The position numbers and the translations under genes are program-made. The notes beneath the pieces are model-generated. The model ran no database searches and was not told the origin of the DNA. It saw only the letters and a list, made by a program, of their open reading frames with translations. A DNA stretch of 64,000 nt from Botryosphaeria dothidea (lineage: Eukaryota > Ascomycota > Dothideomycetes > Botryosphaeriales > Botryosphaeriaceae). The stretch is taken from positions 2,356,001-2,420,000 of the forward strand of contig WWBZ02000016.1 in the NCBI GenBank assembly GCA_011503125.2, read 5' to 3'. Every line of letters begins with the position of its first letter. The stretch's first letter is position 1. Below are positions 45,757 through 64,000 of the stretch, in pieces.

Positions 45757-47710
45757 TCTCGGCCTGGTTCCGCAGGACATGAAGCCTATACCAGGGCTGT
45801 CCTTGCGGCATGACGCTTGCGTCGCCGCACCATTTCATTCCCGCTGATCAGTCTCAAGCACGTCTGATCAGCTGTTATTTCGTGGACACGACCTTTTTTA
45901 CTTGCGATGCGATTGTGTTCTACAAATCTCTTCACTGAAAAGTCAATAAGCGTTGGAATTGTTTTGACTTTGCATCGACGGGTTCTATCACGAAAGCAAG
46001 GCGTTGGTCATTTTGGAAAGGCATTTTATCATTGGAGGGAGACAAAAAGCGAAAACATTTGTTCAAAAAATTATTGGGATGAGTTTACGGCCAGGTTGCT
46101 TTTCCACACACACATGTGGTTCATTTGGGAGGCCTGGAAGCATTTTAGGGGTGCGATGATGATACCCCTAACCGATTGAATTGCCGGGAAAGGCTTTTAA
46201 CGGTTGCTATTTCATGTTTGGTTCGAGCGTCTGCTACTTGCTATGGGAATGGCTTTGAGTTACTGCTGGAGAAGCGAAGTTCCCTATCAATGTATTAGCA
46301 TGTGGTCTTTCGAGACTGCCTTACTCGAAATCCCCTGAATCACTTTCTTACCTGCACTTCCTCACATTTGTCTGCTCTTCTCAGCACTGTGATGACTACA
46401 TTGACCACGGCATCAGACCACCTCCCATACTTACATGCTCCAAAGCCACAAAGTCCGGCTTCTCCTTACAGATCAAGGCGCACACCTCTCCTCGTGATCG
46501 GCGGATTAGAAAAGAAAAGCGGAGACGGGAGACGGCCGAGCACCCTTCCCTCTTTCCCCACCTGCCAAGTCCGGGGTGAAGAATGGTGTGGAAGGACGCC
46601 TGGCCTTTGATCATCAGAAACAGGTGGAGTAGCATATCGGAAGAACCGGTCATGGATCGGCAGATTTGTAAAAGGAGCATTCTGACCACTCAGAGAGCAT
46701 CTTTTGACTAATAGTAAATGCTTCTTTGACGGCTATGCTCGTTGTGGTAAAAGTTCCCAGCGGACTGGAAGCTTTTTTCTTGTGTGTGGGCTGGTCCAAT
46801 CAGGTGGTTTGCGGCTATGTTGTGTGTGATGGAGGGAGCATGAGGGAGGATGGGACGGGAATGAGAGGATTGGGGTGACGTGTGACGCGCACACACGTGC
46901 GAAGCGCCGGTCAGCTTTCTTGTCATAGGGTGCGGTCTTTTCGGGGAGCTTGGGAGAGACTGGGGCGATCGGCGTGTCGGCGTGGCTGGTGTTCGTTCTG
47001 TGGCTCTGGATCGGGCCGCGGTTGGTGTGGATGTGGAGGTGCTCCGGGAGTGGGCAGAGGATGGTACGAAGGGAGGGACTTTGCTTCCACGGACCACCGG
47101 AGTTACCTTCGATGCCCAAACAAGGCCGGTATGGAGTATGTGCTGTCTTTCTGGTGCCGGCATTCAATACCATGCGAACGATGGAGTATTTATATGCATT
47201 CATACATGAGATTTGGGGGTTTCTTGGGTGGATAGTTCGCCGAACAGGACTGCAGTGAGAGTCCAGATCAGAATGTGCTTCGCTTGCCTGGAATTTGCAA
47301 GACCCGTAATTATTAGCCTTTTCTTTTGGGGTCTCATTATGAGGGAAATCTCCAGGATGCCTTGGAAAATTATCTTACTGCAGTTTTTCTGATTACAGTC
47401 AGCTTTATCTCTGTATTCACTTACGAGATTAATTCTGAGTGACCATAAGTATGCTGGATGTTACTTTTAAGGTTTTGACTGGTGATGCTGAATCAGTTCT
47501 GTTCTTCTAGACCCGCGGTCAACGGTTCAGCCCCCTTGGCAAAAAGTCCTCTCCACCTTCCTTCTTACTTGCTTCATGCTCCCACCACCCATGGAAAACA
47601 AAATTCTTGTAGAATTTCGTATCATCATGTCATCTGGTCAAGCGCAACGGGTAAGCTGCTGACTTTCACCCTCATGTTCAGCCCGGTATCTAACGTATTT
47701 CACAAGGAAC
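45757..47710. other. Gene-poor gap
   Basis: About 1.95 kb. Frames at 46.3-46.7 and 46.7-47.3 kb are open on both strands without domains. No repeat or gene recognised. Confidence 0.5.
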
Positions 47711-48090
47711 ATGGCTCAACATGCCACCCATGAAGCAGACAGGCCCGCACCTTGATGCGCTTCCTACAGAGGGGATAGATCCCGTTATAGGCCACCTGGA
47801 TCCGTGCGACCTCTTCAGTATGTGCACGTCGTCTAACGGCAGTTGCAGAAGGGCACTGAGACGAAATTTGCAAACTACTTGATCTTCTCCATGGGAAACC
47901 AAGGGTCATACAAACATGAAACAAGGGACATTCTCTTCAAGTTCGAACTATCACGGGCGTCTATCAACAAGTTTGCAAGCCTGACTTCCTTCAAACCTTT
48001 CGCGGAAAAGATTTAGAGAGGATTATATCACCTTCATCTTCCCGCATCACATATGAGAAAAAAATGATAAGAAAAATGGAATAGCCTTTG
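47711..48090 (+). pseudogene. F-box gene remnant broken by frameshifts
   Basis: Coding-like pieces follow one another in different frames. MAQHATHEADRPAP runs into a stop. The next frame carries LDALPTEGIDPVIGHLDP and CDLFSMCTSS, which fits an F-box (L-P-x-E-x-x-x-x-I-x-x-x-L-x-x-x-D-L). The next has ILFKFELSRASINKFASL, and the last has GKDLERIISPSSSRITYEK. At least three shifts are needed to read through, and no GT-AG introns explain them. I read this as a dead F-box gene. It is independent of the intact gene at 44.2 kb. Confidence 0.55.
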
Positions 48091-48455
48091 GCAACCTGCC
48101 TGCAATAGAGGGCTTCTCTGTTAGTGGTGGCTGGCTTCAAATGTGTAGATCACATGGCGGGAATGGCACACTGGACCTCATGAGCGTCGTTTGCGGAACC
48201 ATAATAGTGTCTGAACCACCAGTTGCACGTGTTATCAGTAATTGTCGAACTTTGAGAAAAGTGATTAATTGTGCAGTCGCTGGCTATCTGTAGAGGGTAG
48301 TGGGGGGAGCCCCTCTTATGCTACACTGGCGGCCGGATCCGCCGGAATGTCACATGATTTTCTAGTCTGACAGTAATTCTCATAGATAATTATTGTACCA
48401 TTTCCAAACGTCAAAAAAATGCCTTTCACATTAAAAAAAAGGCCAGATTATACAC

Positions 48456-49471
48456 TTATCCAAGCCAAGCACTCTTCACGAGCTCTAGGCCTTTGGTAAG
48501 CCAAGGATGTCCAAGTGGCAATGGAACATCCATGAGGTGCTCACCGGGCTGGAGCTCTAGATGAACTTGCGCGTGAGGGTTTTGATCTAGCACCTCCTTT
48601 GCAAAACGCTCGCTTTGGATGGGTGGCACAACCGTGTCGTTTAATCCGTGTATGAGGAACAGTGGGGGCACGTGAGTGCCGTTCCTCACCCTATCGATAG
48701 GATGCACCCTTTCAACGTTGGGGAAATAGTCTAAAAGCTTCCCCTTTTGAACTATTTCGTCGATCATGCCGAACCGAGAAAGCGAGGGGTCGGCGATGAC
48801 CGGTGGCCCGGAGCAGTCTTCTCCCTTTTCGGACGTGGTGGCGGATGCATTCTGCTGTGCCCCAGCGGCAACGGCCCGAATATCGAGAGCCGCACACTCT
48901 GCAATGGCAGCACGAACGCCCTCTTGGGCGTGGTCCAACGCAAACTGCATGCTGAGGCAACCGCCTGCCAGATATTGAATTAGCGCAGAAGAAGACATGC
49001 TTTTTCCAAAGCTTACCAGCACTCTCTCCAACCGTCATGATCCGGGTAAGATCTGCCTGGACTCTGGGCCTGGCAGAAGACCCCAGGAGATTGTCCAATC
49101 CAGGAGTCAGCCAATCCCACAGATCATCCATATCTTCCAGGATGTCAATGGCATTTGATTCAGGTAGCAATCGGTAGTTGGGGGTGACGATAATGGCTGC
49201 TAGAGTAATAGATAGCTCGAGAAGCCAACGTGGAAAGAAATCCGGATGAAGGCTCGAACCGCTGGTCTGGATTGAAAGATTAATTTCTCTACGTCGTTTT
49301 TGCGGGTAGAGGGGCGCTACTGACAAAACCACCACCATGAAAACGAACAATTGTAGGATGGATACCGGGTTCAAGCCCCTCTGGAACCAACACGTCGACG
49401 TTAATTGGCGTGGATGCAGTTGTCTTGTAGTTTGCCGACAAAAGCTCAAAACCTTGGTAAATGCCGTCCAT
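48456..49471 (-). CDS. Alpha/beta hydrolase, HSL/alpha-beta hydrolase-3 type
   Basis: Exons (reverse) are 49471..49325, 49266..49017 and 48964..48456: 301 aa. It has the oxyanion motif FHGGGF at the first junction, LAAIIVTPNYRLLPESNAID, then the nucleophile elbow GESAGG, whose glycine is split by the second intron. The catalytic Asp lies in LFLIHGLNDTVVPP and the catalytic His in QPGEHLMDVP. Members hydrolyse short-chain esters or act in secondary metabolism; the substrate is unknown. No signal peptide. The upstream start is uncertain, because the frame is open about 17 codons further without an ATG. It sits between decayed genes and appears intact. Confidence 0.8.
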
Positions 49472-51169
49472 GATTGCGAGTGGGTCGAAGAGCAGATTGA
49501 GTCCTGCTTGAGAATCTTTCAATGCTGAACTTAAATATGTTTAAAGTGTTCTTGCTGAGTTTGCCAGCATCGTCATTGGTGATCTTTCGGAGGACGCGGA
49601 CTGCATAGCCATCTCGGCATGTTCGGCAACTTCGGCAACTTCGGTGATTGCTAATGGGATTGTTCCTTTGAGGAATGGTAGCTCTTTAAAGATTTGGAAT
49701 TCCACCAACTTGTGAAGAACTGGGAATCGTGGCGTAGTAGGCCTACGAGGTTCTTAGCAAAGATGCGGGATCTGAAATGTAGGCTTTGAAGGTATAGCTC
49801 TGGGTGGGAGCTCTGTTAAGGAGTCTCCGTCGTAGGCTAATGAGAAGCTCTAAGTGGAAGGCGGTCCGTCAGACGCAGGCTGTACTGATGAAAATCAAAA
49901 TTGGGAACCCTGAGTCCCTTGGTGGATATATCAGTATGCTTGCACAGCTGGATCTTCGAAGTCGGGAAATAACCGATGAGCTTCCGCTCTCGGACACTGA
50001 AGCGGTATCTGGCATCTGACTCAGAGTTGCGATTGAAGAGTCGAGTCTTTCTATTCCAGGGTTGGCGTGCGGGGAAGAGCTTAACTTTTACTACCTTTAG
50101 TGCAGATCAGGTTGACTGTCTCAGGATGCACAGTTCCTCGGATGTCTGCCGTGCTGCAAAAGATTCAACACGTAATGACGTCAGCACACTTGCAGCGTAG
50201 ACACCGGCTTGGAGAATAGGCCAGACAAATCACTTATGTACGCATCTCGAGCCGCACATTGGAAATTGTGATCATGCGTGGAATGTCGATGCAACCGAAC
50301 ATCTCAGATGTGATACGAACGCAGCTTGGGTGCGTTTCCAAAGGTTCCACCGCCGCTGCGTCGTCGATCAAGTCCAACAACGACCGCAAATTTCCGGATG
50401 TGTAATATGCCACAGCCCCGGGATGTCGATGAAGCGCTATCACAAAGTCCAGCGTGGGTCGAGCAAGGGTTCTGTGAATGGAGTCCTTGAGATCATGCCT
50501 GCAATGGGCCGTGTCATGAGCCACACGACCTGCAAGATTGCCTCAATGAAGCGAGATTTGCGCGGAGCGGCAAGCGGTAGGGAGAATGTGAGGAATCGAG
50601 TGTGAAGTGGGTTCGCGAAAGCCCAAACCGTGTCCGCGCGGGTTCTGATTGGCTTGCACTAACTGTGCCCTGCATAATCGATCAAAATGGATAACGGAGA
50701 GAAATAAAGTGGCAAACGAAGGAAATGACATGTTGGGCCATAATTGATATCCGCTGAAACGAGTGGAAGAACTTTCCTCATTTGCTGCGGCTTCTGAGCG
50801 TGTTCATGAGGAGACGTCAGGCCGGATTTTGAAGGACAAAGCAACTGCCTGACTGACGACGGAGGATCGAAAGAAGATCGGAAGAGCCTCTTAACCAGCA
50901 GTGACTTCCCGGAACACTAATACTTTTGCGAAATTCAAACAGAGGGAAAGTTACAAAAATACAAAGGACTCCAAAAACACAACAGGGCTCGAGTCTCGAA
51001 GCGAATGTCCAGAAACTGGTGTAGGAACAAACAGCAAAAAAGGCCTTTTCCACAGTTGCGCTGGCTTTTCCGATCTCTAAAGCAGTTCCTGGAGTTGTGG
51101 GAAGATTGGGCGTCCCGTCAGCTGTAACAGCGCGAGGGAATTTGCGCTTATGTCACATCTGGTGTAAAC
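49472..51169. other. Accessory gap with coding debris
   Basis: Contains coding-like fragments but no intact gene. Reverse-strand pieces are RFPVLHKLVEFQIFKELPF with TIPLAITEVAEVAEHAE (about 49.55-49.72 kb) and LDFVIALHRHPGAVAYY (within 50234-50524). A plus-strand piece at 49804-50019 has GGYISMLAQLDL. Stops and frame changes separate them. The remainder to 51.17 kb shows nothing. Confidence 0.35.
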
Positions 51170-51646
51170 TCAATGCCTAAGCAGGCTGTGGTAGCTGGGC
51201 TCTTTGCGGGAGAGGATAAGATCGAACGGCGGATCCGGGTGCTTTGTGACCAAGAAGCGGTTTTCGTTAAAACTTGGTGATCCTTCCACCGACCAGCAAA
51301 GGTCGACATAGCCTTGGACTTCGGTCGTGCCGCCGTTCATGAGAGGGGTGCTCAGTGTTTGCTGCCATGGCTGTATGGCCATCCCGAGAACTTCTGTCAC
51401 CAGCCTTGGAGCCACTAGGTTGACATCGTTGTCGTTGTCGAATGACGTGAGGACCCCGAGCTTGGTGATCAAGTAACCATCTTTTGATTTCGTTTGGATT
51501 CGGACGGACACTACGATGTCGGCTCCGGACGGTCTCTGCCGGTGAGATGGCTTCTGGCAGTGATCTTTGTTAGCAATTGGACATTTTCTACAAGAAAAGA
51601 CGGTAAGACTCACCTTGTGGGAACGTCGTCCATGTAAAAGAAACAT
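51170..51646 (-). CDS. Retropepsin-like domain protein, subfamily A (member A1)
   Basis: Exons (reverse) 51646..51614 and 51553..51170 give 138 aa. The intron has GTGAGT, a TTGCTAAC branch and TGCCAG, and its 60 nt read through in frame. The aspartic-protease-like beta pattern is VVSVRIQTKSKDGY, then LGVL, then NDVNLVAPRLVTEVLGM where retropepsins have D-T-G-x-D-x-N-L-I-S. It continues with VQGYVDLCW and ends DPPFDLILSRK, matching the second hydrophobic-hydrophobic-Gly motif. At the catalytic position the residues are D-N-D-N, so the Asp may persist but the T-G is gone, and the second motif Gly is Ser. Probably catalytically dead, though a role in binding is possible. Closely similar to A2 and A3. 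Confidence 0.7.
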   Translation of the reverse strand: MFLLHGRRSHKVSLTVFSCRKCPIANKDHCQKPSHRQRPSGADIVVSVRIQTKSKDGYLITKLGVLTSFDNDNDVNLVAPRLVTEVLGMAIQPWQQTLSTPLMNGGTTEVQGYVDLCWSVEGSPSFNENRFLVTKHPDPPFDLILSRKEPSYHSLLRH

Positions 51647-52560
51647 CGCTCGAAAATCAAAGGAGTGACTAAGCAAGTGGGCGACGAAAATGAAGGTGCG
51701 CAATTGACAAACTTGAAAGTTGCCGAGCGAGGGGCATGTATGTGTAGGGCCCCAAAGCCCTGGAATGCAAGGGGGGCCCATAACAGGGCATGAATATCTT
51801 ATTTGCCGTCCTTGGCTCAGCGCACACCCGTCGTACACTGATAAACCATGAGACTGTGTCTTGTCAACGCCCCTGGCGCCCTTGCACCAATGGCCATCAA
51901 ATTGGCACGAAGCCTGAATGAGACTGAGGCGCGAGACACTTAATTGATACCAATTGGGTTTTCGGCGCGGCTGAGTGACGAGAGCAATGTGGTGGCTGTG
52001 CTGAGTTGAGCCAATCGTAGGCCACCAGCGATGACTTCCCGAGCGCGCACGGGCAGATGGTGTCCGTTTCGTTCCCCTGAACTCAATTGTCGGATGATAG
52101 AATATTATCACTCGCATCTGCTTGCGAGATACTGATTGCGGAGGTGATGCCCAACAGGCCAACGCCCGATCCCTAAGGCCGAAGCTTGCGCACAGATCAG
52201 CCTGAGAGACATTCGAGATTTAATCTACACCATTTCACCATTCGTTCTGACAGTGAAGTTCTGCCTGCAGTCCGTGTTCTTCTGATCTGGCGATTTGTTA
52301 CTGGTCCTGCTGCGCATCATGGACAACGCATCAACAGAAACGCATATATCTGCACGAGGCGATTGGACGACCACCAAGAGCCTTGCCACAGCCTTATAGA
52401 GCTGGTCATGCATCTCGAAACCGCGCCACGCAAAAGAATTTAAAACGTCCTGTGACGGCCAACTGGACCGTGACCATACCTTCGAAGACAGTTTCATTCT
52501 CACTCAACTTTGGAAGCAGCCGGCAGATTACCCGGGGTTCCGATACAAGTTTTCTCGAAA
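51647..52560. other. Gap between A1 and the DUF6594 gene
   Basis: About 910 bp between divergent genes, presumably both promoters. The A1 frame is open far upstream on the reverse strand, but its composition (many Cys, Ser, His, Arg) is not coding-like. Nothing else recognised. Confidence 0.5.
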
Positions 52561-53592
52561 ATGTCCAACTATGCGTCGCCTATTCTTCCATCGTACCACC
52601 CTCCAGCAACTGGGGGCTCTGCGCCGCGTCTAATTCCACCCGCAGGCGCCGGAGCTTCCGGAAACCCATCCCCTGGTGATGATCTTCCTGCGGGCTACCC
52701 GAAATTTGCAGAAAAGATGTGCCACATTCCCGAAACAGCAATTTTCCGGCGCTTCGGCACGCTAAACGCACAGAACCTCTTGTATCTACAGGCCGAACTT
52801 GTGAGCATGGAAGAGAGGCTGCGCAAGCTTCAGAGGGTAGATGCAACGAGCAGTGTTGGCAAGAAAAGCAAGTACGCGAGGAATTGGTTTTATCTCAGCC
52901 AGTCCAGAAAAGATGGGGATGAGAAGCAGTGGAGATTGGTGCGAAGAATACGGCAGACGTTGAAAGAATACAGTGAGCTCCTCCTGTCTCTAGAAGAATT
53001 GGTTTGACTGGAAGCAGACTCGACGATCATCGAACAGGCAAAGATCCTCCGTATGCAAACCCCTGGCAGATATGACTTGGACCATGTGCAGCGTTTTCTG
53101 GAGACCGACGTCATGGGGCCACTGGCCTTGACCGGTAGAGATTCGGGAACTTGGGGAAGCATGAAGGAGCCGGAGAGCCATGCGAAAGATCTCGTTGCCC
53201 TGCTATCCAGACATGACGAAGATTCTTTCTCGAAATGGGTTACCGAGAGGGCGAGCCTCAAACTGTTCAAGCTCCCCCCTTGCTGGCGTCGAGCCTGGAC
53301 CTCGCAGAAAACGCACGATCTTGACTGCCTCGAGGATCGCATTCTGCTTCGTTGGACTCACCATTTGACTAGCATTTTGGCCTCTGCTCTCCCAATCCTG
53401 TCAATCGCAATCCTGTACCGTGTGAGGTCTCTCGAGATCAGGCTTGGAATCATTGCCATTTTCAACCTCATCCTCTCACTCTGTCTCACGATCTTCACGA
53501 CGGCCAAGAGAACTGATATCTTCGCCGTCACTGCGGCTTTCTCAGCGGTTCAAGTTGTTTTCGTTCAGGTTGGAACTGAGACTTCTCTTTGA
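52561..53592 (+). CDS. DUF6594-type membrane protein
   Basis: Exons 52561..52972 and 53018..53592 give 328 aa. The intron (GTGAGC, TTTGAC branch, AGCAG) is only 45 nt, and removing it eliminates an otherwise in-frame TGA. The N-terminus is a disordered Pro/Ser/Gly stretch. The DUF6594 core follows: GYPKFAEKM, AIFRRFGTLNAQNLLYLQAE, LVSMEERLRKLQ, LKEY joined to NSTIIEQAKILRM, and RYDLDHVQRFL. Three hydrophobic segments close the protein: LTSILASALPILSIAILY, GIIAIFNLILSLCLTIF and IFAVTAAFSAVQVVFVQ. The function of the family is unknown to me; the architecture suggests a membrane-anchored cytosolic helical domain. It lies inside the retropepsin-like cluster. Confidence 0.8.
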
Positions 53593-54026
53593 GGCAACAC
53601 AATATAGTAAATTAATGAAACCCCCAGAGTGCGCGTCTATAGAAATTCTTTCCAAGTCCGTTCTGTTTCTTTCTGCCTGGGGGGAAATGCTTCAGATGTG
53701 GGTTTGTAATGTGATAAGCTCGTATAAAAAGAATGAAACGTGTGTGGAAGCGCACCTAGACATCTTTCGTAGGGAATTAAATGTGCCATCTCCCAAGAGA
53801 ATCTTAGAAACCGAAATGTTTTGCAGCGATGAGACTGCCTCTTTTTCTTTTTCTTTCTTTCTTTCCCCGCCTTGTCGGAAGAAGAATGGGTGTGGTAGGA
53901 AATATAGGCTTGTTGGCTGGTAGGTGGACAGTCCTGTTCAGTGTTGAGCATGCTGACAGAAGCACCCGAAATACGCATTTCTGGAGCATTTAATCGGCGC
54001 CATGTCGATATGTCGAAGGTACTTTG
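53593..54026. other. Convergent gap between DUF6594 gene and member B1
   Basis: 434 bp of 3' flanking sequence with a pyrimidine-rich CTTT-type tract at about 53840-53870. No gene. Confidence 0.6.
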
Positions 54027-54823
54027 TCAATTCGCCTGCTTCTTTTTTTTCAGCCGCTGTTCTTGTAATTTGTCGTCCTCAGACTCGGCCGCCGCTTCAT
54101 CCACTTCTTGTGCTCGTCTTTCGACTTGTTGTCTTTGACGTTCACCATCTATCACACGCTCTTATGTCAAAGTAAGCATCTGCATAGAATTCATGCTCGC
54201 GGATTGGCATACATACCTGTGGACACCTGTGGACGGTTTGGTCTGTTCCCACCCAGATTCTCATTGTACCAGCATGTAGGATGTTCTTCATTGAGACGTT
54301 CATCCTGGAATGTTTGGAGTCCAATGACAACATCCGCGGATTGACGGGACGGGACGACGAGGAATTTGGTGGTGAAATATTTCGGGTGCATGAAAACGGC
54401 CTTGTTGCGACATCTTTTATCTTCACCTTTCCAGCGCAAAGTGACCTCCCCCAGAATCTCCAGCTCGCTTCCATCAAGAACTCGTACCGAGACTCGGGAC
54501 AATGGAGATGTTGAGGTCTCGTTATATCGGATGAAGCCGTGGAAGTCGTGGACCAAGTGCTCACTGATGAAGCTGTAGCTGTCGGAGCCAGTGTCGATTA
54601 TCGCGACCGCCCATTCTTTCCTATCATCACTTCCTCGTGCACTTGGTAGAATGAGACAGACGTCTCTTCGAAAGTCTTCCTGTCGCTGATATGGTTCAGC
54701 CTTGATAACATGTGTATTAGGTAATGTTCTCGCCTTACGGGTGTGTTGTTCCGGCGTGCGGATCTGCGCACCCCCGAAAGGTGAGCCTTCAAGAAAGCCA
54801 CCCATGTTGGTGGAAAAAGGCAT
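54027..54823 (-). CDS. Retropepsin-like protein with intact DTG (member B1)
   Basis: Exons (reverse) 54823..54217 and 54124..54027 give 234 aa. An N-terminal ~55 residues of basic, probably disordered sequence lead to RRDVCLILPS and WAVAIIDTGSDSYSFISEHL, a canonical retropepsin active-site triplet. LEILGEVTLRWKG is the paired strand, and ADVVIGLQTFQ is the second hydrophobic-Gly motif. The spliced last exon adds a charged tail (EAAAESEDDKLQEQRLKKK). The intron (92 nt) ends in an unusual AACAAG acceptor; unspliced, the protein ends at ...TGMYANPRA. A single retropepsin domain would have to dimerise to be active. No RT, integrase or Gag-like sequence adjoins it. Confidence 0.7.
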
Positions 54824-57398
54824 CCCCCGAAGCCGACCGATCCGGAAACTCTCGAATATGCATAGGTACTGGGATGATTCTCGGTCGGGTACGAGGTGTA
54901 TGCGCTCTCCCTTGTTGTTTCGTCCATGTTCAAGCCGGAAGCGCTTCTTTGTGCAACGTGCTCATCCATGCCGCTTGAATAGAGGGGAATTCTGGTGCCG
55001 CTGAGTCCAGTCTGTGTTACACACCTGAGAAACGGATTGGAATGGAGACCGAGATGTATACCGGAATGACAGCGAGCGTCGCAGCGATTGACCGAATGCC
55101 CCCAACACTTTCTGAACCGCAACGAAAAGCGCAGGTGAAAAAGAAAGACGGAGAGCTGATCTACTTGGACCGATGGCCAAACGAACCACCTTTTAGCTTG
55201 TACTTCAACGGTCGGACGGTGCGTGTCCCAAGCAGCGGGAAAGGTAGTACCGACTGCATGCAGGGAGTCACGACGTTCCCCGCCTCTTAACACTCACACC
55301 TCACTGTAGCGGCCACAGACCCCCAACCCTCATGTTATCAATTCTGGGAAAGAAACAGATCATTCTGCTGGAAAAATTCTTCGTGACTTTGACATCGAGC
55401 CTGGGACTGGGTATTAACAGCTTCGGACTCGAGGTCTCTGATACCCTTGGCATCGAGCCACCGCATTAGCGTTGTGACCGCCCTAATGAGCGGCACGGGA
55501 CGATGAAACGAGTACCGTGCGCGAAGATGGAGTCAAAGTACTTTAGACTCCTCTCGACCATCCCGTCAAAAAGGGTTGATGCGTACACAGCCCAAGGCTC
55601 CCGGCGTGGCCCGCGCTGAAGGCAAGGGGTAACGGTAGCAATTTCTTGTCGGGGACCAGTTGGTGCTTTGATCAGTCCTGTATGAAAGCCGCTGGCCAAT
55701 GCTTTCGATTGTCTCGTATTTCGCAGAGAGGTCCTTCAAGGTTTGACAGGGTTGTACAAGTGATTCCGACAGGATTATGTCCCATTCGGAGAGCTCTGAA
55801 AGCCGGTGTTCTGGTCTCAATAGTCAATTGATGCACACCGGCATTCTCCACCGCATTTAATGCCTCCTGTAGAGATTCCGTCCGGGGAACGTGAACCACG
55901 CCAGTAACCACTTGGTGCGCGATTCTGATATAAAATCAGCCATTGATACCGTGGAGTTGTTTACAGTGAACGACGGCAGCAGGAGAAACGAACGGCAAGA
56001 GAGTTCTACAAGAGGGAAAAAACGCAGAGCCAGAAGCTTCTTTCTGTCCGTGCAGGTACAATGGGATGAGCTTTTCGTCACGGAGGAGACAGAGCGGGGC
56101 AGCTGTGGGGTCAGCGAATTTTTTCGACTCAAAAATCGACGCAAGGGGCAGGACAGGCCGCAACAGGCTGCTTCATGAATGATAATGAGAAGAGGGACTG
56201 AGGCTTGTTTATGCATGAGTAGTTGTCGAAGTGGCACTGCTACAGCCTGAAATGGCGTTACAGGCTACTGTGTTATCGCTTCTGCACCCAGATACTCATT
56301 ATTGATAGATTTCGCGACACCGCCTCGTGTATTGTTGTTTTGTTGTTGAGGAATGTGCGATGGAGCGCACGTGTGGCTTCCCCGCTCTTGACTAAGCAGA
56401 GGTGAATCAGGCTCTTCCCACAACCCCACTACCACTCGTCGGCTGAACGAAGCAATCCGTGGTCGACGGGATTTGCGAGACCGTCTTTCCCTACATACTG
56501 CTGAATAAAACAAAGCCTCTGTTCTTTCCTCCCCTCAGAAAGCTTGACTGCCCACCGCTCAGCCCTCCTGCGCCGTCCCCGAGAGTCGATTGTCATGTCC
56601 TGCTTTACGAGAGACTTCGAACAGCGCACTATACAATCAGAGCCTAAGCTGTTCTGATAATACAAGTAAAGACTTGCGGGGGTGCTGCGCTATAGTGTCG
56701 AGGGTTGGCTGTCCGGTATACGCCTGGTGCATAGCTTGCATCAGGCTGGGTACATCGTGAAGGATAGCCAACGGGATAACTGCTGCGATTGCAGCTAAGG
56801 CCATTACATGCAGAATCCATACGACGGAATCAGCCTTGCAATGAGTTACAGCCGCCGGCAATCAACACTTGCCATGACGTGAGCCAGTCAGCCTTTTCCA
56901 TGTGGCCGGCAACAGGCCGTTTACTGTGATCTTGGTAGTACGGCAGCTAAAGTTCAGCCTCCACGTGCCCCCAGAAAGTAGGTTCGTGGCGCTCACTATC
57001 GGCTCTTGTTGTGCGGTAAGGCGTTTTTTCATGCCGAAGGCAGATTTCGAGAGGCTTGGCCGATGGTTGCCTGCTCGCAAGCTACCTACATATGCACCTC
57101 CACACCTTCACCGCCCTTCACGCAATTTGGGCGCAGCAAATCATAGGACCTCTCAACTTGTTTTTCAATCATCGATGCACAGCCAGCCTCATCTACTTTG
57201 CCTTGCCTTCCCAATTTTTTCCTGTTCTATCGGCACAGCCACCCATGCTGTGCACCGATCGGTCAAGCATGGTCCGAAGGACTTAAAGCCAGCTTTTTCC
57301 CTGTCCAAAATCCTATCGAGTGATTTTTCAATCAGACGTCCCGCAATCATTCTGTCTTTTCCGTGTTGCTTGCAGGTATATTTTGTGCCTACAAAACC
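54824..57398. other. 2.6 kb gap with coding-like fragments
   Basis: Reverse-strand fragments at 55.47-55.93 kb lie in different frames: VVTGVVHVPRTESLQEALNA, LSELSEWDIILSESLVQPC and TLFDGMVERSLKYFDSIFA. These look like a decayed or unrecognised spliced gene. A plus-strand 82-codon ORF at 55042-55290 (KKKDGELIYLDRWPNEPPF) is possible but unsupported. The remainder is AT/CT-rich with nothing recognised. Confidence 0.35.
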
Positions 57399-57935
57399 AT
57401 GAGCTCCATAGAGGAGGTATCGCCGGGCCGCAATTGCGATGGCTCCTCTCATGTACGTTCTGTTATTCGTTGCCCGCTTTCGACACTCCTAACTGAAAGG
57501 CTATAGAACATGAGCGAAGCATATGTGAGAGATGTTAAATTCGTCCGCATCCACGATGATGGTTCAGAGAAGTTATCAGAGCCGGCAACCGCTTTCTTCG
57601 ACATGGAAAACACCGAGACAGACATGATCACTACGACTTTCGTTACGAATGAACGCCTTGAACCGGTTAAGAAGTATGAGGAGAGAGATGTTCGAACCAT
57701 TACATCGCCACTGAGCACCAATCCCGTTCGAATAGTGGGCGAAGTCGAAGCCCGTTGGCGTGGGTTCAACGCTCTTCGTGAAGGCCAGGCGCTCTTCCTG
57801 GGCCGCAAGTTCTACCAGTGCCGTCTTCTCATCATCGAAGTTGAAGGAGAGGCGCTTTTTGATGCCTGTTTCTGTTCGAAAACAATACAAAAGCTCGGAC
57901 TCGGCGAGAAACCATCACTCTCATCACTGATATGA
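57399..57935 (+). CDS. Retropepsin-like protein lacking the catalytic triplet (member B3)
   Basis: Exons 57399..57452 and 57507..57935, joined in phase 0 across GTACGT and CTATAG with a CTAACTGA branch, give 160 aa. After SEAYVRDVKFVRIHDD the active-site loop reads AFFDMENTETDMITTTF where B1 and B2 have D-T-G. RIVGEVEARWRG aligns with B1 LEILGEVTLRWKG and B2 KIIGVVKNQRWRG. FDACFCSKTIQKLGL aligns with B2 YDAIFSSKTM and with A3 FDVLLGRKT. The fold pattern is kept while catalytic residues are lost, so this is probably a non-enzymatic paralogue. Membership rests on motif alignment by eye and needs profile confirmation. Confidence 0.6.
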
Positions 57936-59163
57936 GATCCCCAAAGCTGCTCAGTCGTTCAAGAGAGACACTTTGACGGCATCTCACACCACCGGTAACC
58001 TTTGTCCCGTTTATCTCTATGTTGCCAACTCTTCAATTTTTTTTTTGACTGTACCTCGTGTCCTCCATTGATGTCTCTTTCTTCCGTAGCTTTGTTCCAT
58101 AGTTTTTATCTACATACGGCCAAGTCTGTTGGGAGGTCATTACAGTAACAATGACCTACCTTCTAAATCTGCACTGCGTGCTGGTATTGGGAAAGTGATG
58201 TGGTGAAATTCTTGCCGGTGCCGGATGTTGATGCAGACTTAGAAGCTATTGAGCGTGTTTTGATGCACTGGATGGGAAATATGCATTTGAAAGAAATATA
58301 ACAGATACCGCGTTGTTGCCATGAGAGATAAATGTTAACAATGATGTCTCGAAGTGAAGAAAGAGACCAAGGGTTTTATCCGTATTTTCGTGGTGTGGTA
58401 GGTGATATGGCATTTGTGCAGGGAAGAGGAGCATTGTCGGAGGAAAGCGGGAGCCCCGTGGGCCACCCAGCCGTGCGTATCGTGTCGTGGTACCGGTCCC
58501 AATATATAAGAAAGACTCGCAAGTCCATAGTCCCGCCTTAATCACGACTCGTGAGCCTCACTCATAAATTTCGAATACTTAGAGGCGTCCCTATCCATTT
58601 GCTAGTACACACAACGCAGGCACGCGTCGGCCACTCTAGCCACACGCTCGAGCGCACGCCACAGCATCCAGGGACTGTCATTAGGCCGACGCGTGCCGAG
58701 AAACGCTGCCGCATTATTGGTCCGTCTATTTTTTGACCGCCTTCTGACGTCGAGCTCCGGCCCAACGCTGGATAAGGATAAACAGCTCGAGCTTCACACG
58801 GCCTCCACGCTCTGCATTCACGCCCCACTGATCCGCCCTTTCGCGGGGGATCCCTCGCCGACGCAATCCTCGAGCTCTATCGCTTCCTCAGACCCGTCAT
58901 CACACGCTTTTCGATTCGGAGCATCGGCTGCTCTCGTCTGCCGCACGCGCTGTTCTTCACCGCCGCTCCGGCCTCCGTCTTTCTCCCGCCCACGCTGCCA
59001 CCTCCCGCCCGACTGCCGCAAATCCTCCACAATCGCGCCGCAAGCTTGCTGTCGCAGACCGACCGACAGCCCGAGCCACGGCAGCTACCCACAACGCCCT
59101 TGGTGGCGCACAACTACGCCATCGTGTCGCGCTTAGTGGTCGTTCGCCCGCATTGCTGCACGC
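57936..59163. other. Gap between members B3 and B2
   Basis: About 1.2 kb. A TATATAAG at about 58502-58509 could serve a transcript reaching the B2 gene. GC-rich frames at 58.7-59.2 kb are open on both strands without domains and are probably the B2 leader. Confidence 0.5.
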
Positions 59164-60085
59164 ATGGCCCACAGGGAGCCAACAAACCGGAGCGATGGCG
59201 CTTTAGACGATATTCAAGCTGGCTTGTCGGCGAATGATGTCGTCTCTCCTCAAGAGGATGCCCCTCGCGCTTCAGAGACCGACCATCTCCTCGCCGGCGA
59301 TCCGTCTAATCTGCAGCTCGCTGACGAGCAGATCGCCGCTTCACACTTTGTCCGGAATCCATGCCCTCGCTGCAATCATCCACAAGTGCGCCTACCTCGC
59401 GAGCGGACCCGAGACCACACTGCTAACTATGTACTTTGTAGGAGGACTGGCAAAGAGATGTCCACTTCGCCGTTAAAGACGACCACAACGCCGAGCATAA
59501 AGTACTCGCTGGAGCACTATTCGACACCGGCACCGAAGTCGACAACTTCCTATCGGCCGATTTTGTCAGAGAAGCCGGTATACAGTTCCAGCGCTGCACA
59601 GACGTCAAGGAGACACAATCATGGTGGAAGCGGCTTCTCTCAAAGCTGCGCGGGAAGCATTCTCGGCTTACACATCGTACCGTCGACAGACGCCCGATCA
59701 AGATCATCGGCGTGGTCAAGAATCAGCGTTGGCGCGGCCTGGAGGAAGCACGCTGTACCAAGGGGGTAAGCTTCACGCCGCAGTACTTGACGAGCGACTT
59801 CTTCGTCGCTGAGAATTTGGCGTACGATGCCATATTCAGTTCAAAGACCATGAATCATCATCGCCTAAGGGGTAATTGTACACAAGTGGCGGCTTTCTAT
59901 GGCCAGATGCCAGATCCCACTAAGGGTAAGTCCTCCTCTCCGACTTACTTCAAGTGGTTTCCCTGACGCCAACGCCCGTAGACCCCGAGGCCTACAAGAG
60001 GTGGAAAGAGGAAAAGAAGAAACAGGAACGTATTCAGCGGGAACAGGAGCAAGACAAACAGCGCAAGAACTCCTCGAATAAATGA
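59164..60085 (+). CDS. Retropepsin-like protein with intact DTG (member B2)
   Basis: Exons 59164..59385, 59442..59925 and 59982..60085, joined by two 56-nt introns in phase, give 269 aa. The N-terminal ~75 residues are acidic and disordered, ending HFVRNPCPRCNHPQ with a CxxC pair. The domain begins DWQRDVHFAVKDD and LAGALFDTGTEVDNFLSADF (canonical D-T-G-T). IKIIGVVKNQRWRG follows a ~30-residue basic insertion. ENLAYDAIFSSKTMNHH is the second motif, with the usual Gly replaced by Ser. The last exon encodes a highly charged tail (AYKRWKEEKKKQERIQREQ), like the tail proposed for B1. No signal peptide, membrane segment or retroelement domain. Activity is plausible but unproven. Confidence 0.75.
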
Positions 60086-60969
60086 TGCGCCGCCGATCAA
60101 CTCACAACAAAACTGTCTGGCAGGAGATGACAAGGAGCTCACCCTGAATTTTTTCTTCAATGCAGCCTCCAAGAACTCGCTTTCCCGAGCGACAAAGTAC
60201 CTCGGTCTCTCTCAAAGTCTCTTGAATTTCTTCATAAATCTACCCCCACCCAACCACCATACACATACACATATATCTTTTGTACAGATGCGGTAAATTT
60301 TTGGCGCATATCGCGGTGGAGTTTCACGAGAACGAAGTCACGGGAAAATTGTTACGATCACGCATTGTATTGCATTTCATGGAGTTTCGAGGTTGGTTTT
60401 CGTCTCCTTTTTCTTTACGCCCTTTTCGGTCTATCTGCTTTATCTGGTTTCCAGCTTGGTGTTTGATCACGCATTTGCAGGATGGTGCCGATTTCCTTGG
60501 TTTATGAAGAGCGAGATACCAGTCATGATTTCGAAGGACTTGTAGGTCAAGGTATTTGGAAATATGAGAAAAATCAGCGGGGGATTTCCACACCATATTC
60601 CAATTTTGCACTCATGTTTGAATCATTCGCAGAGGAGCTATACAGGCATTCATAGACGGGAACGGAGAAAGCTTTTAACCGTTAGTACCATGGGAGGTAA
60701 CCTAGACGTGGACTTTGTCAAAACCTCCATACGATGATGTATAGACTTGTGCTTCAATTCCCTCCAAAGGCAGTGGGGAGTACCTGATGTTACGGACGCA
60801 ACGCTAAGGTTTTGCTTGAGAACAAGCAAGTGGAGGATAAACCAGATACACTTTCAAGTTCAGTGAGGCACTCAAATTTCCCATCTGGTAAGATTTTCCT
60901 CTGGCGGAAGACGGCCCCATTTTCTCCAGCTCGTGAACACAGCCGCCCGCCACGGACCTCTTGTGTCTC
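60086..60969. other. Convergent gap between members B2 and A2
   Basis: About 880 bp, AT-rich, no supported gene. Small antisense frames at 60.3-60.6 kb lack domains. Confidence 0.55.
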
Positions 60970-61374
60970 TCAGTGCCCATCCAACCCACTTTCCCTCGCT
61001 AGCTTCCTCCCAACGAGTAGGTCAAACGGTGGATCCTCCTGCGCCGTGACCCCGAAGCGCCCTGAATGCAGTGCGGCACCGCCGATCCGCTTCCTCCTGC
61101 TCTGCTCGCACACGCTCCACTCGATGTCCACGAACCCTTGCACCTCGACGTCGTTTCCGTGCAACCGTAGCGTCGAGGGCCCCCGCTGGACGTCCATGCC
61201 GAGCACCTCCGTGATGAGCTTGGCAGATGCGAGATTCACGTCCTCGTTGTCGCTCCTGGCGGGATGCCACATGACGGCGAGTTTCTGGATGGTCTTGCCG
61301 GAGGGCTGGCGGACGCGGATGGCCACGTTCGCGGTGCGGTCCTGTCCTTCCTGGCGAGGTGTCTGTTGCGCCAT
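60970..61374 (-). CDS. Retropepsin-like domain protein, subfamily A (member A2)
   Basis: Single exon, 134 aa from MAQQTPRQEG; an upstream in-frame start at 61431 would add 19 residues. Shared subfamily pattern: ANVAIRVRQPSGKTIQKL, then NEDVNLASAKLITEVLGMD, VEVQGFVDIEW, and QEDPPFDLLVGRK. Where retropepsins carry D-T-G-S before D-x-N-L, this protein has S-D-N-E, so the catalytic Asp is absent from the expected position. LLVGRK keeps the second-motif glycine. There is no targeting signal. Same strand and nearly the same length as A1 and A3, which supports descent by local duplication followed by divergence. Confidence 0.7.
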   Translation of the reverse strand: MAQQTPRQEGQDRTANVAIRVRQPSGKTIQKLAVMWHPARSDNEDVNLASAKLITEVLGMDVQRGPSTLRLHGNDVEVQGFVDIEWSVCEQSRRKRIGGAALHSGRFGVTAQEDPPFDLLVGRKLARESGLDGH

Positions 61375-63083
61375 AGCCGTGTTCTCAGTGTCTCGCTTCT
61401 TTATCACTTTCCTTCCCTTCAACACACACACGTACGTTCTTCGCGCGGCAGGGCTTCTTTCCGAAGCACATCGTTGTCTTTCTCAAGGACCGGGCCCTCG
61501 AACAATAGACAAAGTATGGGCGCGACGCCTACTCTGCACTTTAAATCTCGTGGCGGATAGGGCCGCCGAAGAGCGGTGTATGCGCTGTCCGTCAAATCAT
61601 ACAAGCAATCAGAGAGACCAGTCCCTCAATTCCTCCTTTCAAACAATCTGAACGAATGGCTGTGGACGAGGGAAAACAAAACGACGTTCGGGGCGTACCG
61701 AGGAAGAGCAAATTGACGGAAAATGTGGGAGCCTGCCTGTTTGTAGCTGGTGCCTCGGAGCGGGATCTACGTCAGGTTTGCGGGTACAAGCGCTTTCGAA
61801 GTAGTTAAACTTTTGTTCTTCCCAGCGCTTTGGGTCCTCTGGCGGGGGTTTAGGACAAGGTCTGTTTCGATCAGACGAGAAGAGCAGATTGCACAGTCCT
61901 TCCATCTCTTTTCTTTGCCATCTTATATTGCCTTTTTTCTTTTGCTTGTTGAATCTCTGTTCCAGGTTCGGCGAATACCTGCAAGGTCGAATTTTGATGC
62001 CCTGGGCATCACCTCAATGTAACACAATGGAAAGCGTTTCTGCCCAGGGTCTTAAAAGGGCATTTATCCTATTTTTATTTACCAGCCAAATAAAACGTTC
62101 ATCGGCAGATTGGATCGACATCGCGAACATTCCACCTGCAAGTGAGCCTGAGGAGCCAGAAAACTCACCGGTCAGCCTTGCTTGGGCGCGAAGCCGGTAC
62201 GGCCCGAGCCACGTTTTTGTATTCGTGTCCGCCGTGAGCGTTCACTCTGCACCCGGCCGTTTTCTGAGTCTCTCTTGGCTCCACGGAGTCCCTTCCACGT
62301 ACTTCTCGTGCCACGACGCCCAGCGGGTGAGGGGACGTCGGGTGCGCATGCGGTGGATGGTTGGAGTTGTGGCGATTCGCGATTAGTCAATGACTCGGTC
62401 TTGCATCAGATTAGTGCCAGCCCCCGCAGCTGTGGCATCTACCCAAACCCGTGCGTCATGGTGTTCACGCCAGCCCGAAGCACTGAAGATAATGGGGGAA
62501 GAATCTTGAGCTGTTCCGGTCAACGTTTCTGCTTGTGTCGAGGTTACATTAAATGATGTGTTACTTTTTTTTTCCTGATGGAAATAATTCGAGGCGTAGG
62601 TGAAACTGTACTCCACTTCAGGTTCAGAGATACCTGTAAGAGCAGAGTATCACGGGTTTGAAGCAGATTGCTGGATCAGTAAGGTTTGTGAGAGAAAAGC
62701 AGGGAAAAACGGATCCGTGTGCAATTTGTGAAAGTCCTGTCAAACCCCCGCATTTCATAGGTGATTATGTAGTCAATGTAGAGTAACGTATTGGATGCAC
62801 TTGATACCACTGCCTCCCAATGTAGCCCTCTCCAACGTAATCCTTCGTGTTAAGAAATAAACGCCTCGGGTCGAATTGCCCCGCGGTGGTGTGACAGCCT
62901 CAGTGCCCGTCGGCCAAGAGAGAATCCGGGTGCAGAGGGATGGTGTGAATGGCGCAGTGTGCTGCTGCAAATGATCGTAATCGATAGGCCGAGGTAGTTG
63001 CGGGTATTGTGTGCTGTAATCAAAGACAGTCCTCGCAGTCGTGAGATCGTTATTCGTATAAGCTGGAATCCTTGTGTCGTGTC
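61375..63083. other. 1.7 kb gap between A2 and A3
   Basis: No supported gene. Reverse-strand DNA near 62.17-62.62 kb contains coding-like stretches (a frame with RWASWHEKYVEGTPWSQ) interrupted by a stop. Plus-strand frames over the same DNA are equally open, so nothing is called. Confidence 0.4.
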
Positions 63084-63503
63084 CTACGCAAGACCGCATT
63101 CGATGGCAGTCTTTCGACCCAGCAGGACATCGAAAGGTGGGTCGTATTGGGAGATGACGACAAAGCGCGTGGTTCGTCTTTTGCTGGATCTTTCGAATCC
63201 CCATTCCAGATCCACGTGACCCTGCGTGTCAAGCATTCTACCTTGGAAGGGTATTTTCCGGCCGGACTGAGTCTTCTCATCTGTCTGTATGTCCAGATGT
63301 AGAACCTCTCGTACGAGCTTCGGAGAGATGAGATTTGCGTCATCATTGCCACCGGGGTACCAGAGGACGGCAAGCTTTGGGATTTTCTTCCCAGCATGGT
63401 TGAATATGTAGATGCATATCGTCTCGACGACCTCCTCGTTTGACTTCGACTGCAGGCGACAGATGTCAGCAGCTGCACACGCCGGAGCAAAGAGATATGT
63501 CAT
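63084..63503 (-). CDS. Retropepsin-like domain protein, subfamily A (member A3)
   Basis: Single exon, 139 aa from the ATG at 63503 (MTYLFAPACAAADI); the frame is open a little further to a GTG, and an upstream exon is possible. The domain has ETICIYIFNHAGKKIPKL, AVLWYPGGNDDANLISPKL, VREVLHLDIQ, then DTQGHVDLEWGFE and DPPFDVLLGRKTAIECGLA. The position of the catalytic D-T-G is G-G-N. The N-L-I-S loop, the Q-G-H-V-D-L-x-W strand and the L-L-G-R-K motif match real retropepsins closely, so loss of activity with fold retention is the simplest reading. Closest relatives in the window are A2, then A1. Confidence 0.7.
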   Translation of the reverse strand: MTYLFAPACAAADICRLQSKSNEEVVETICIYIFNHAGKKIPKLAVLWYPGGNDDANLISPKLVREVLHLDIQTDEKTQSGRKIPFQGRMLDTQGHVDLEWGFERSSKRRTTRFVVISQYDPPFDVLLGRKTAIECGLA

Positions 63504-64000
63504 CGGACTTGAAAGTTGCACAGAAACGTCTCCTCAGCGCCCTGTGCGCGACCGCTGAAAATCATCCTCAGCACCTACCAAATGACCGTGTCTTTGCGGA
63601 CGAAGCAAGCCCAAGCACATTTGTAACCTCTTGATGGGCAGTGGCCGATAAGACGGATGTTGGGCGCTAGGTGGTGTGGAAGCTTTCGCACGGACGAGTG
63701 AAGAAACGAGGCTGAAAGGCAAGTGCAGAGGGGTGGACCGGTGTAGGTATTTGACGCATACCTAGCCGAGAGTGGCTGGTGATTATCTGTTCCATCTTCG
63801 GTACCCCACCAAAGCTACGCACACCAGCCTTCCCGCAAGCCTGTTCATGCATGCTAGCCACCTCTCCGGCCTTTTCAACAACGAACGCCTCACAGGCCTC
63901 GACTATGGACGACGAACACCACATTGCGCCAATTCATCAGACCTTCCGTGATACCCTGCTGCCTTAGCAGATACTGCATCCGTGCTCGCCAAGCTTACTC
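63504..64000. other. Window end, upstream of A3
   Basis: A reverse-strand frame at 63924-63667 (start SSSIVEACEAFVVEKAGEV) has a GTATGC donor-like site after SHSRLG. It could be a 5' exon of A3, but no acceptor giving a continuous frame was found. Otherwise nothing seen. Confidence 0.3.

Follow-up and report, generated by a model that had tools for sequence, protein, structure and literature searches.

Paired retropepsin-like genes beside DUF6594 genes at dispersed loci of Botryosphaeria dothidea

Gasdermin cell death in fungi and bacteria is wired by pairs of protease and membrane-protein genes, as set out in parts of PMC10197012, and ~80% of fungal gasdermins adjoin genes of their activating proteases, according to portions of PMC10197012 and PMC12881547. 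In a 64,000-nucleotide stretch of the Botryosphaeria dothidea genome (contig WWBZ02000016.1, positions 2,356,001 to 2,420,000; hereafter the window), we find six short retropepsin-like genes of two families, A (A1–A3) and B (B1–B3), together with a gene of the family DUF6594, which encodes a predicted membrane protein. This arrangement is like fungal gasdermin–protease two-gene clusters of the HET-Q1/HET-Q2 type in that a membrane-acting protein lies beside protease-type genes in many copies per genome, but the gasdermin-cluster proteases are mostly of the serine S8 or CHAT class (both points from sections of the same two papers), whereas A and B are aspartic-type. Because the proteases differ and Pfam does not identify DUF6594 as a gasdermin, the likeness is one of layout rather than membership.

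Other retropepsins offer further comparisons. Ddi1, a nonviral member of clan AA, has ubiquitin-like or UBA domains beside its protease domain, as described in part of PMC2642776. Unlike Ddi1, the six proteins and the six reading frames of window positions 49–64 kb yielded no ubiquitin-type Pfam domain, the A family is without the D-T/S-G motif, and the genes are linked to DUF6594. The Pol polyprotein of long-terminal-repeat (LTR) retroelements has adjoining reverse transcriptase, RNase H and integrase; none of these was found at the A/B cluster in a six-frame Pfam scan of 49.0–64.0 kb at E 0.1, in agreement with a preliminary description of the window that had reported no retroelement domain nearby. 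Fungal genes with Asp_protease_2/gag-asp_proteas domains (PF13650, PF13975) are related by profile to both A (97.3%) and B (98.2%), and some, such as a DnaJ–retropepsin–retropepsin gene at C78/C36 (C and L numbers are our own labels for places in the genome, C12 being the window's contig), occupy the same head-to-head place beside DUF6594; unlike A and B of the window, which reach no Pfam cut-off, two scanned proteins of this type do.

We tentatively propose that these genes form a dispersed module in which a DUF6594 membrane protein is controlled by a pair of retropepsins, one degenerate and one active, and that the six window genes are quite possibly parts of two copies of this module, which recurs across the genome. 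The preliminary description had treated the cluster as protease-like genes alone. The six genes are real as judged from sequence, but the account missed DUF6594, which lies between A1 and B1 and again past the end of the window, where A3 is head-to-head with a second DUF6594 gene beginning ~0.9 kb upstream of A3, at ~64,497 (L018:494-1646). The membership of the DUF6594 gene in the unit is the main point that was overlooked.

A genome search with A3, made blind to DUF6594, gave 11 matches, ten of them ≤3.4 kb from a DUF6594 place and all ten head-to-head with it, A2 being counted as such with A3 in between. Eight of the ten non-self matches have E ≤0.0011 and the other two 0.58 and 1.26; the former, C1:350k, reaches 5e-7 with the A profile, and the latter, C12:1119k, is the eleventh match and lies 0.9 Mb from DUF6594. 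When the window is counted as one locus, as are the C21 and C29 copies, seven of eight independent A loci adjoin DUF6594. With ~0.75% of the genome sequence at most 5 kb from DUF6594, linkage at seven of eight loci has a chance probability of ~1e-14. The B3 query gave six matches, all within these clusters (four ≤5 kb from DUF6594, the others at 5.5 and 9.6 kb), and one further match, at C58 (E 1.7e-5), came from searching with the B gene found in L033. Six of the seven DUF6594-linked A loci have a clear B, and at the seventh a marginal B-like frame (C1:353k, E 0.12) occupies the B place. Since A accompanies DUF6594 at six loci besides the window, five with a clear B and one with a marginal B, we take the unit to be A, DUF6594 and B. 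The expansion in place proposed in the preliminary description is therefore an incomplete account, as the family has not spread only locally. The tail-to-tail arrangement of B and DUF6594 seen in the window (B1) recurs at C1:1982k, C58, C29 and C47:1003k; elsewhere B has other orientations.

Almost nothing but A, B and DUF6594 is common to different loci in an all-against-all comparison of reading frames (the window and L018–L031, E 1e-3, with same-locus pairs and C21 versus C29 left out); the further shared items are one gene in C12:4951k and C1:346k and a repeat in L025 and L027. Between loci, DUF6594 proteins are 34–53% identical, A partners 16–45% and B partners 16–32%. The protease-like parts thus diverge faster than the membrane protein does, a difference that either a role in recognition or relaxed constraint would lead one to expect. 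C21 and C29 are 99.9% alike over 8.1 kb, and several places on the contig pairs C36/C78 and C21/C29 are identical or 99.9% alike, a likeness that points to recent segmental duplication or assembly redundancy. HET-domain genes, considered as the main partner, were rejected, as among the 150 of 251 candidates scored only two (by eye) are near these loci; these lie ~3 kb or less from two modules, at C12:4954 kb and C78:1174 kb.

The retropepsin-like fold ascribed to the six genes by the preliminary description was recovered by modelling for A3 and is suggested by profile for the rest. The predicted structure of A3 is a retropepsin fold, which places the A family in the clan AA retropepsin-like fold. 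Resemblance among the six genes exceeds chance. Scored singly against Pfam, the A and B proteins gave nothing over cut-off (best E 0.11), and a PF00077 profile search of the genome gave no match. Compared by hhalign, the profiles of the two families match (96.9%). When a profile was made from other retropepsin-like genes alone, it detected A3 (7e-7), B1 (3e-6) and B3 (0.005), was weak for A1 (0.36) and A2 (4.3), and did not detect B2. Eight A3 homologues at 46–67% identity exist elsewhere, one of them in Diplodia intermedia.

The two families differ at the active site, and the earlier suggestion that the cluster mixes members with and without DTG is correct. DTG is present in B1 (IDTGSDS) and B3 (FDTGTEV), and B2 has D-M-E. 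By contrast, D-T/S-G occurs in none of the 17 A rows, A1–A3 included, and in the rows compared the A loop exceeds that of DTG proteins by two to three residues. All ten aligned B genes keep the Asp, C58 only if a seven-residue insertion is allowed in its alignment. The active site of a retropepsin is built from two subunits, each of which must contribute an Asp; a dimer of A with B should therefore be unable to cut, and A might in this way hold B in check. The residues fit the idea, raised in the preliminary description, that members of the family may act together as active and inactive partners.

The DUF6594 gene of the window is intact and scores 174 bits with PF20237, for which the cut-off is 30. 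Three hydrophobic C-terminal segments, predicted to be membrane helices, are present in its product and in seven other copies examined (overlapping hydrophobic windows were merged by eye). We rejected the possibility that the gene is broken, as its only in-frame TGA sits within a 45-base intron; a frame break occurs near the same site in five of the seven other copies. Four DUF6594 copies scanned with Pfam had only DUF6594 over cut-off and no gasdermin. The Pfam entry gives no function for the family, and we found no paper naming DUF6594 in the literature searched.

Linkage to retropepsin-like genes extends beyond the A family. By hand, 71 DUF6594 matches were merged into 36 places, including the near-identical C21/C29 and C36/C78 pairs and the fragment C1:1984.5k; with copies and the one fragment set aside, 14 of 33 places have a retropepsin-like neighbour. 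Among six DUF6594 loci without a known A that we inspected, three have such a gene (L033, L034 and L037) and three do not. L033 has a B gene tail-to-tail with DUF6594 (E 2.4e-17). L034 (904-2901, minus strand; C78:3234.4-3236.4 kb) has a 666-residue DnaJ–retropepsin–retropepsin gene with DSG and DTG, head-to-head with DUF6594 and present as an identical copy at C36:4120-4122 kb. In L037, a retropepsin-like domain ends a long low-complexity protein encoded head-to-head with DUF6594 at a distance of 4 kb. Three further retropepsin-like genes, at C7, C69 and C78:1178k, are also head-to-head with DUF6594. Five further DUF6594 loci, all distinct, thus have in the A place a retropepsin-like gene whose Asp is intact; among these A-position domains outside the A family, Asp is kept in 7/7 aligned and D-T/S-G in 6/7. 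Eleven PF13650/PF13975 places were hand-picked as non-repeat; a distance check of all 120 PF13650 matches in the genome then placed eight ≤5 kb from DUF6594, corresponding to six gene copies (two identical), all six head-to-head. In a tree of the 16 DUF6594 copies with enough sequence, in which only 2/13 inner branches are well supported and which omits seven short rows, six of these being unlinked, the retropepsin-linked copies group apart from three unlinked ones, except C78:3237k. No DUF6594 was found near two retropepsin-like places that we were unable to attribute to a retroelement or Ddi1, C47:939k and C12:1119k. The first (C47:939.3-940.2 kb, L053) is a retropepsin-like gene related to the DnaJ–retropepsin protein; the second (L031:3612-4583, plus strand; C12:1118.6-1119.6 kb) encodes a DUF6590 protein that is retropepsin-like over a stretch at its C-terminus.

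Starting from the modelled fold of A3, the profile relation between A and B, the loss or retention of the motif, and the linkage and orientation of the genes, we envisage the following mechanism, in which dimer choice, cleavage, target and outcome are what we infer. The DUF6594 protein would be anchored by its three C-terminal membrane helices. A, transcribed away from an upstream region shared with DUF6594, would have kept the retropepsin fold while losing D-T/S-G, and at least one B gene, close to the other end of DUF6594 or past it, would supply a retropepsin-like domain with its Asp retained. The B homodimer could be a protease or former protease, and A, binding B, perhaps as the dead partner in a dimer, or the DUF6594 protein via its retained fold, could act as a non-cutting regulator. 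The cleavage target would be the co-encoded DUF6594 membrane protein, and the most likely outcome would be a switchable response at the membrane, for example, cell death or self-recognition; for the module as a whole, cell death, allorecognition or quality control could each be the function. The simplest history is that DUF6594 lay beside a divergently transcribed active retropepsin, after which one lineage lost the motif (A) and another retropepsin (B) took up a place close by with its Asp intact. More broadly, these loci could represent a third, aspartic-type class of fungal protease-switched membrane modules, in which a DUF6594 executioner or receptor, restrained or triggered by a co-encoded retropepsin and a sister lacking the motif, would serve self/non-self recognition or regulated cell death, with ancestral loci having one active, sometimes tandem, head-to-head retropepsin, which in the derived lineage represented in the window turned into a pseudoprotease (A) as B took over the catalytic Asp; we consider this broader proposal doubtful. 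A recurrent pairing of retropepsin-like genes with DUF6594, in conserved orientation, would give a first functional handle on an unstudied family of three-helix membrane proteins, extend protease–membrane-protein wiring to aspartic proteases, and provide a natural example of a protease accompanied by a dead copy of itself.

Several observations weigh against control by such a pair. The linkage data come from the single genome of B. dothidea, and no retropepsin-like neighbour was found at 19 of 33 DUF6594 places, nine of them scanned locally with A, B and retropepsin profiles (nothing below E 0.5) and ten covered by genome-wide queries only. The B1 model is too poor to rely on (pLDDT 64), with no retropepsin among the 50 Foldseek matches listed. 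Loss of the catalytic Asp is uncertain for A1 (D-N-D) and C1:1977k (D-P-N), because in these two of 17 A rows an Asp stands at catalytic spacing, six residues ahead of the Asn of the N-L-[IV]-[SA] segment. Many B proteins may not cut, as full DTG is kept in only four of ten aligned genes (B1, B3, C29 and C47:1003k) and the loops are altered in the other six. These altered loops, the absence of D-T/S-G from every A row, and the fusion of one A-position gene to a DnaJ domain would suit a non-proteolytic module, in which A and B serve as pseudo-retropepsins, binding domains by which DUF6594 is held, folded or delivered in a chaperone or quality-control role. Pure binding, however, would make needless the Asp kept in every aligned B gene and every A-position domain outside the A family, and we regard this explanation as rather unlikely.

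Whole-block copying also accounts for part of the linkage. An ancestral A–DUF6594–B block might have been copied around the genome without any shared function, as the C21/C29 copies and the grouping of most retropepsin-linked DUF6594 genes in the tree would allow. The correlations between the A, B and DUF6594 distance matrices are all positive, in favour of descent alone, but weak and not significant, with values as high in 788/10000, 589/5040 and 359/5040 permutations; this weakness also tells against the module we propose. Yet the head-to-head layout of A persists despite the low identity of A and B between loci, and few other genes are common to these loci, making descent alone an unlikely explanation. 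That the genes are remnants of retroelement proteases, spuriously called as genes, we consider very improbable: open frames with splice sites, the A3 homologues elsewhere, the fixed position beside DUF6594 and the lack of retroelement domains in the scanned frames all argue against it, whereas a link to the LTR Pol protease of this genome argues for it. This link emerged when a profile of related retropepsin-like genes was scored against genome proteins and the Protein Data Bank (PDB). The Pol protease scored 33.0 bits, an unclassified gene at C47:939k 33.9, two retroelement-like genes 27.1 and 25.0, the gene taken for Ddi1 21.7, and two other repeats 19.0 and 17.1; the best PDB matches were Ddi1. 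The domestication of a retroelement protease proposed in the preliminary description is thus neither borne out nor refuted, and PMC8778642, in the part available, says no more than that domestication is plausible for fungal retropepsins. In the literature searched we found nothing on fungal retropepsin-like genes with DnaJ, and the accessible parts of PMC8454179, PMC10993733 and PMC5987419 contain nothing on an A–DUF6594–B module.

All six open reading frames named in the preliminary description lie where it placed them, each can be spliced at GT..AG introns, and their reading as single-domain, spliced, host-type genes is borne out (Table 1). The spliced B3 model is identical over 269/269 residues to the deposited B. 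dothidea hypothetical protein GTA08_BOTSDO02502. In all three A genes a short first exon precedes a single domain exon, and the MCFG-type start of A2 and A3 (MCFG, MCLG) recurs in a deposited Diplodia intermedia protein, P0010. B1 and B3 have in common a three-exon layout, an identically placed junction ahead of E-D-F/W-x-R-D-V, and a last exon that is charged; the first intron of B1 is a choice among several possible introns.

Table 1 Gene models of the A/B cluster, in window positions
Feature	Position	Strand	Exons	Remarks
A1, retropepsin-like, without D-T/S-G	51170..51646	-	51614-51646 (tentative first exon), 51170-51553	A profile member
DUF6594 gene	52561..53592	+	52561-52972, 53018-53592	head-to-head with A1
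B1, retropepsin-like with DTG	54027..54969	-	54739-54969, 54217-54679, 54027-54148	tail-to-tail with DUF6594
B2, B family, D-M-E replaces DTG	57399..57935	+	57399-57452, 57507-57935	
B3, retropepsin-like with DTG	59164..60085	+	59164-59385, 59442-59925, 59982-60085	
A2, A family, without D-T/S-G	60970..61471	-	61436-61471, 60970-61362 (acceptor one of several possible)	
A3, A family, without D-T/S-G	63084..63620	-	63579-63620, 63084-63449	

Ahead of the cluster, an alpha/beta hydrolase-type gene lies at window positions 48456-49540 on the minus strand. The G+C content is 0.49–0.54 in 2-kb bins from 46000 to 64000, versus mostly 0.53–0.60 earlier in the window, where two bins are equally low.
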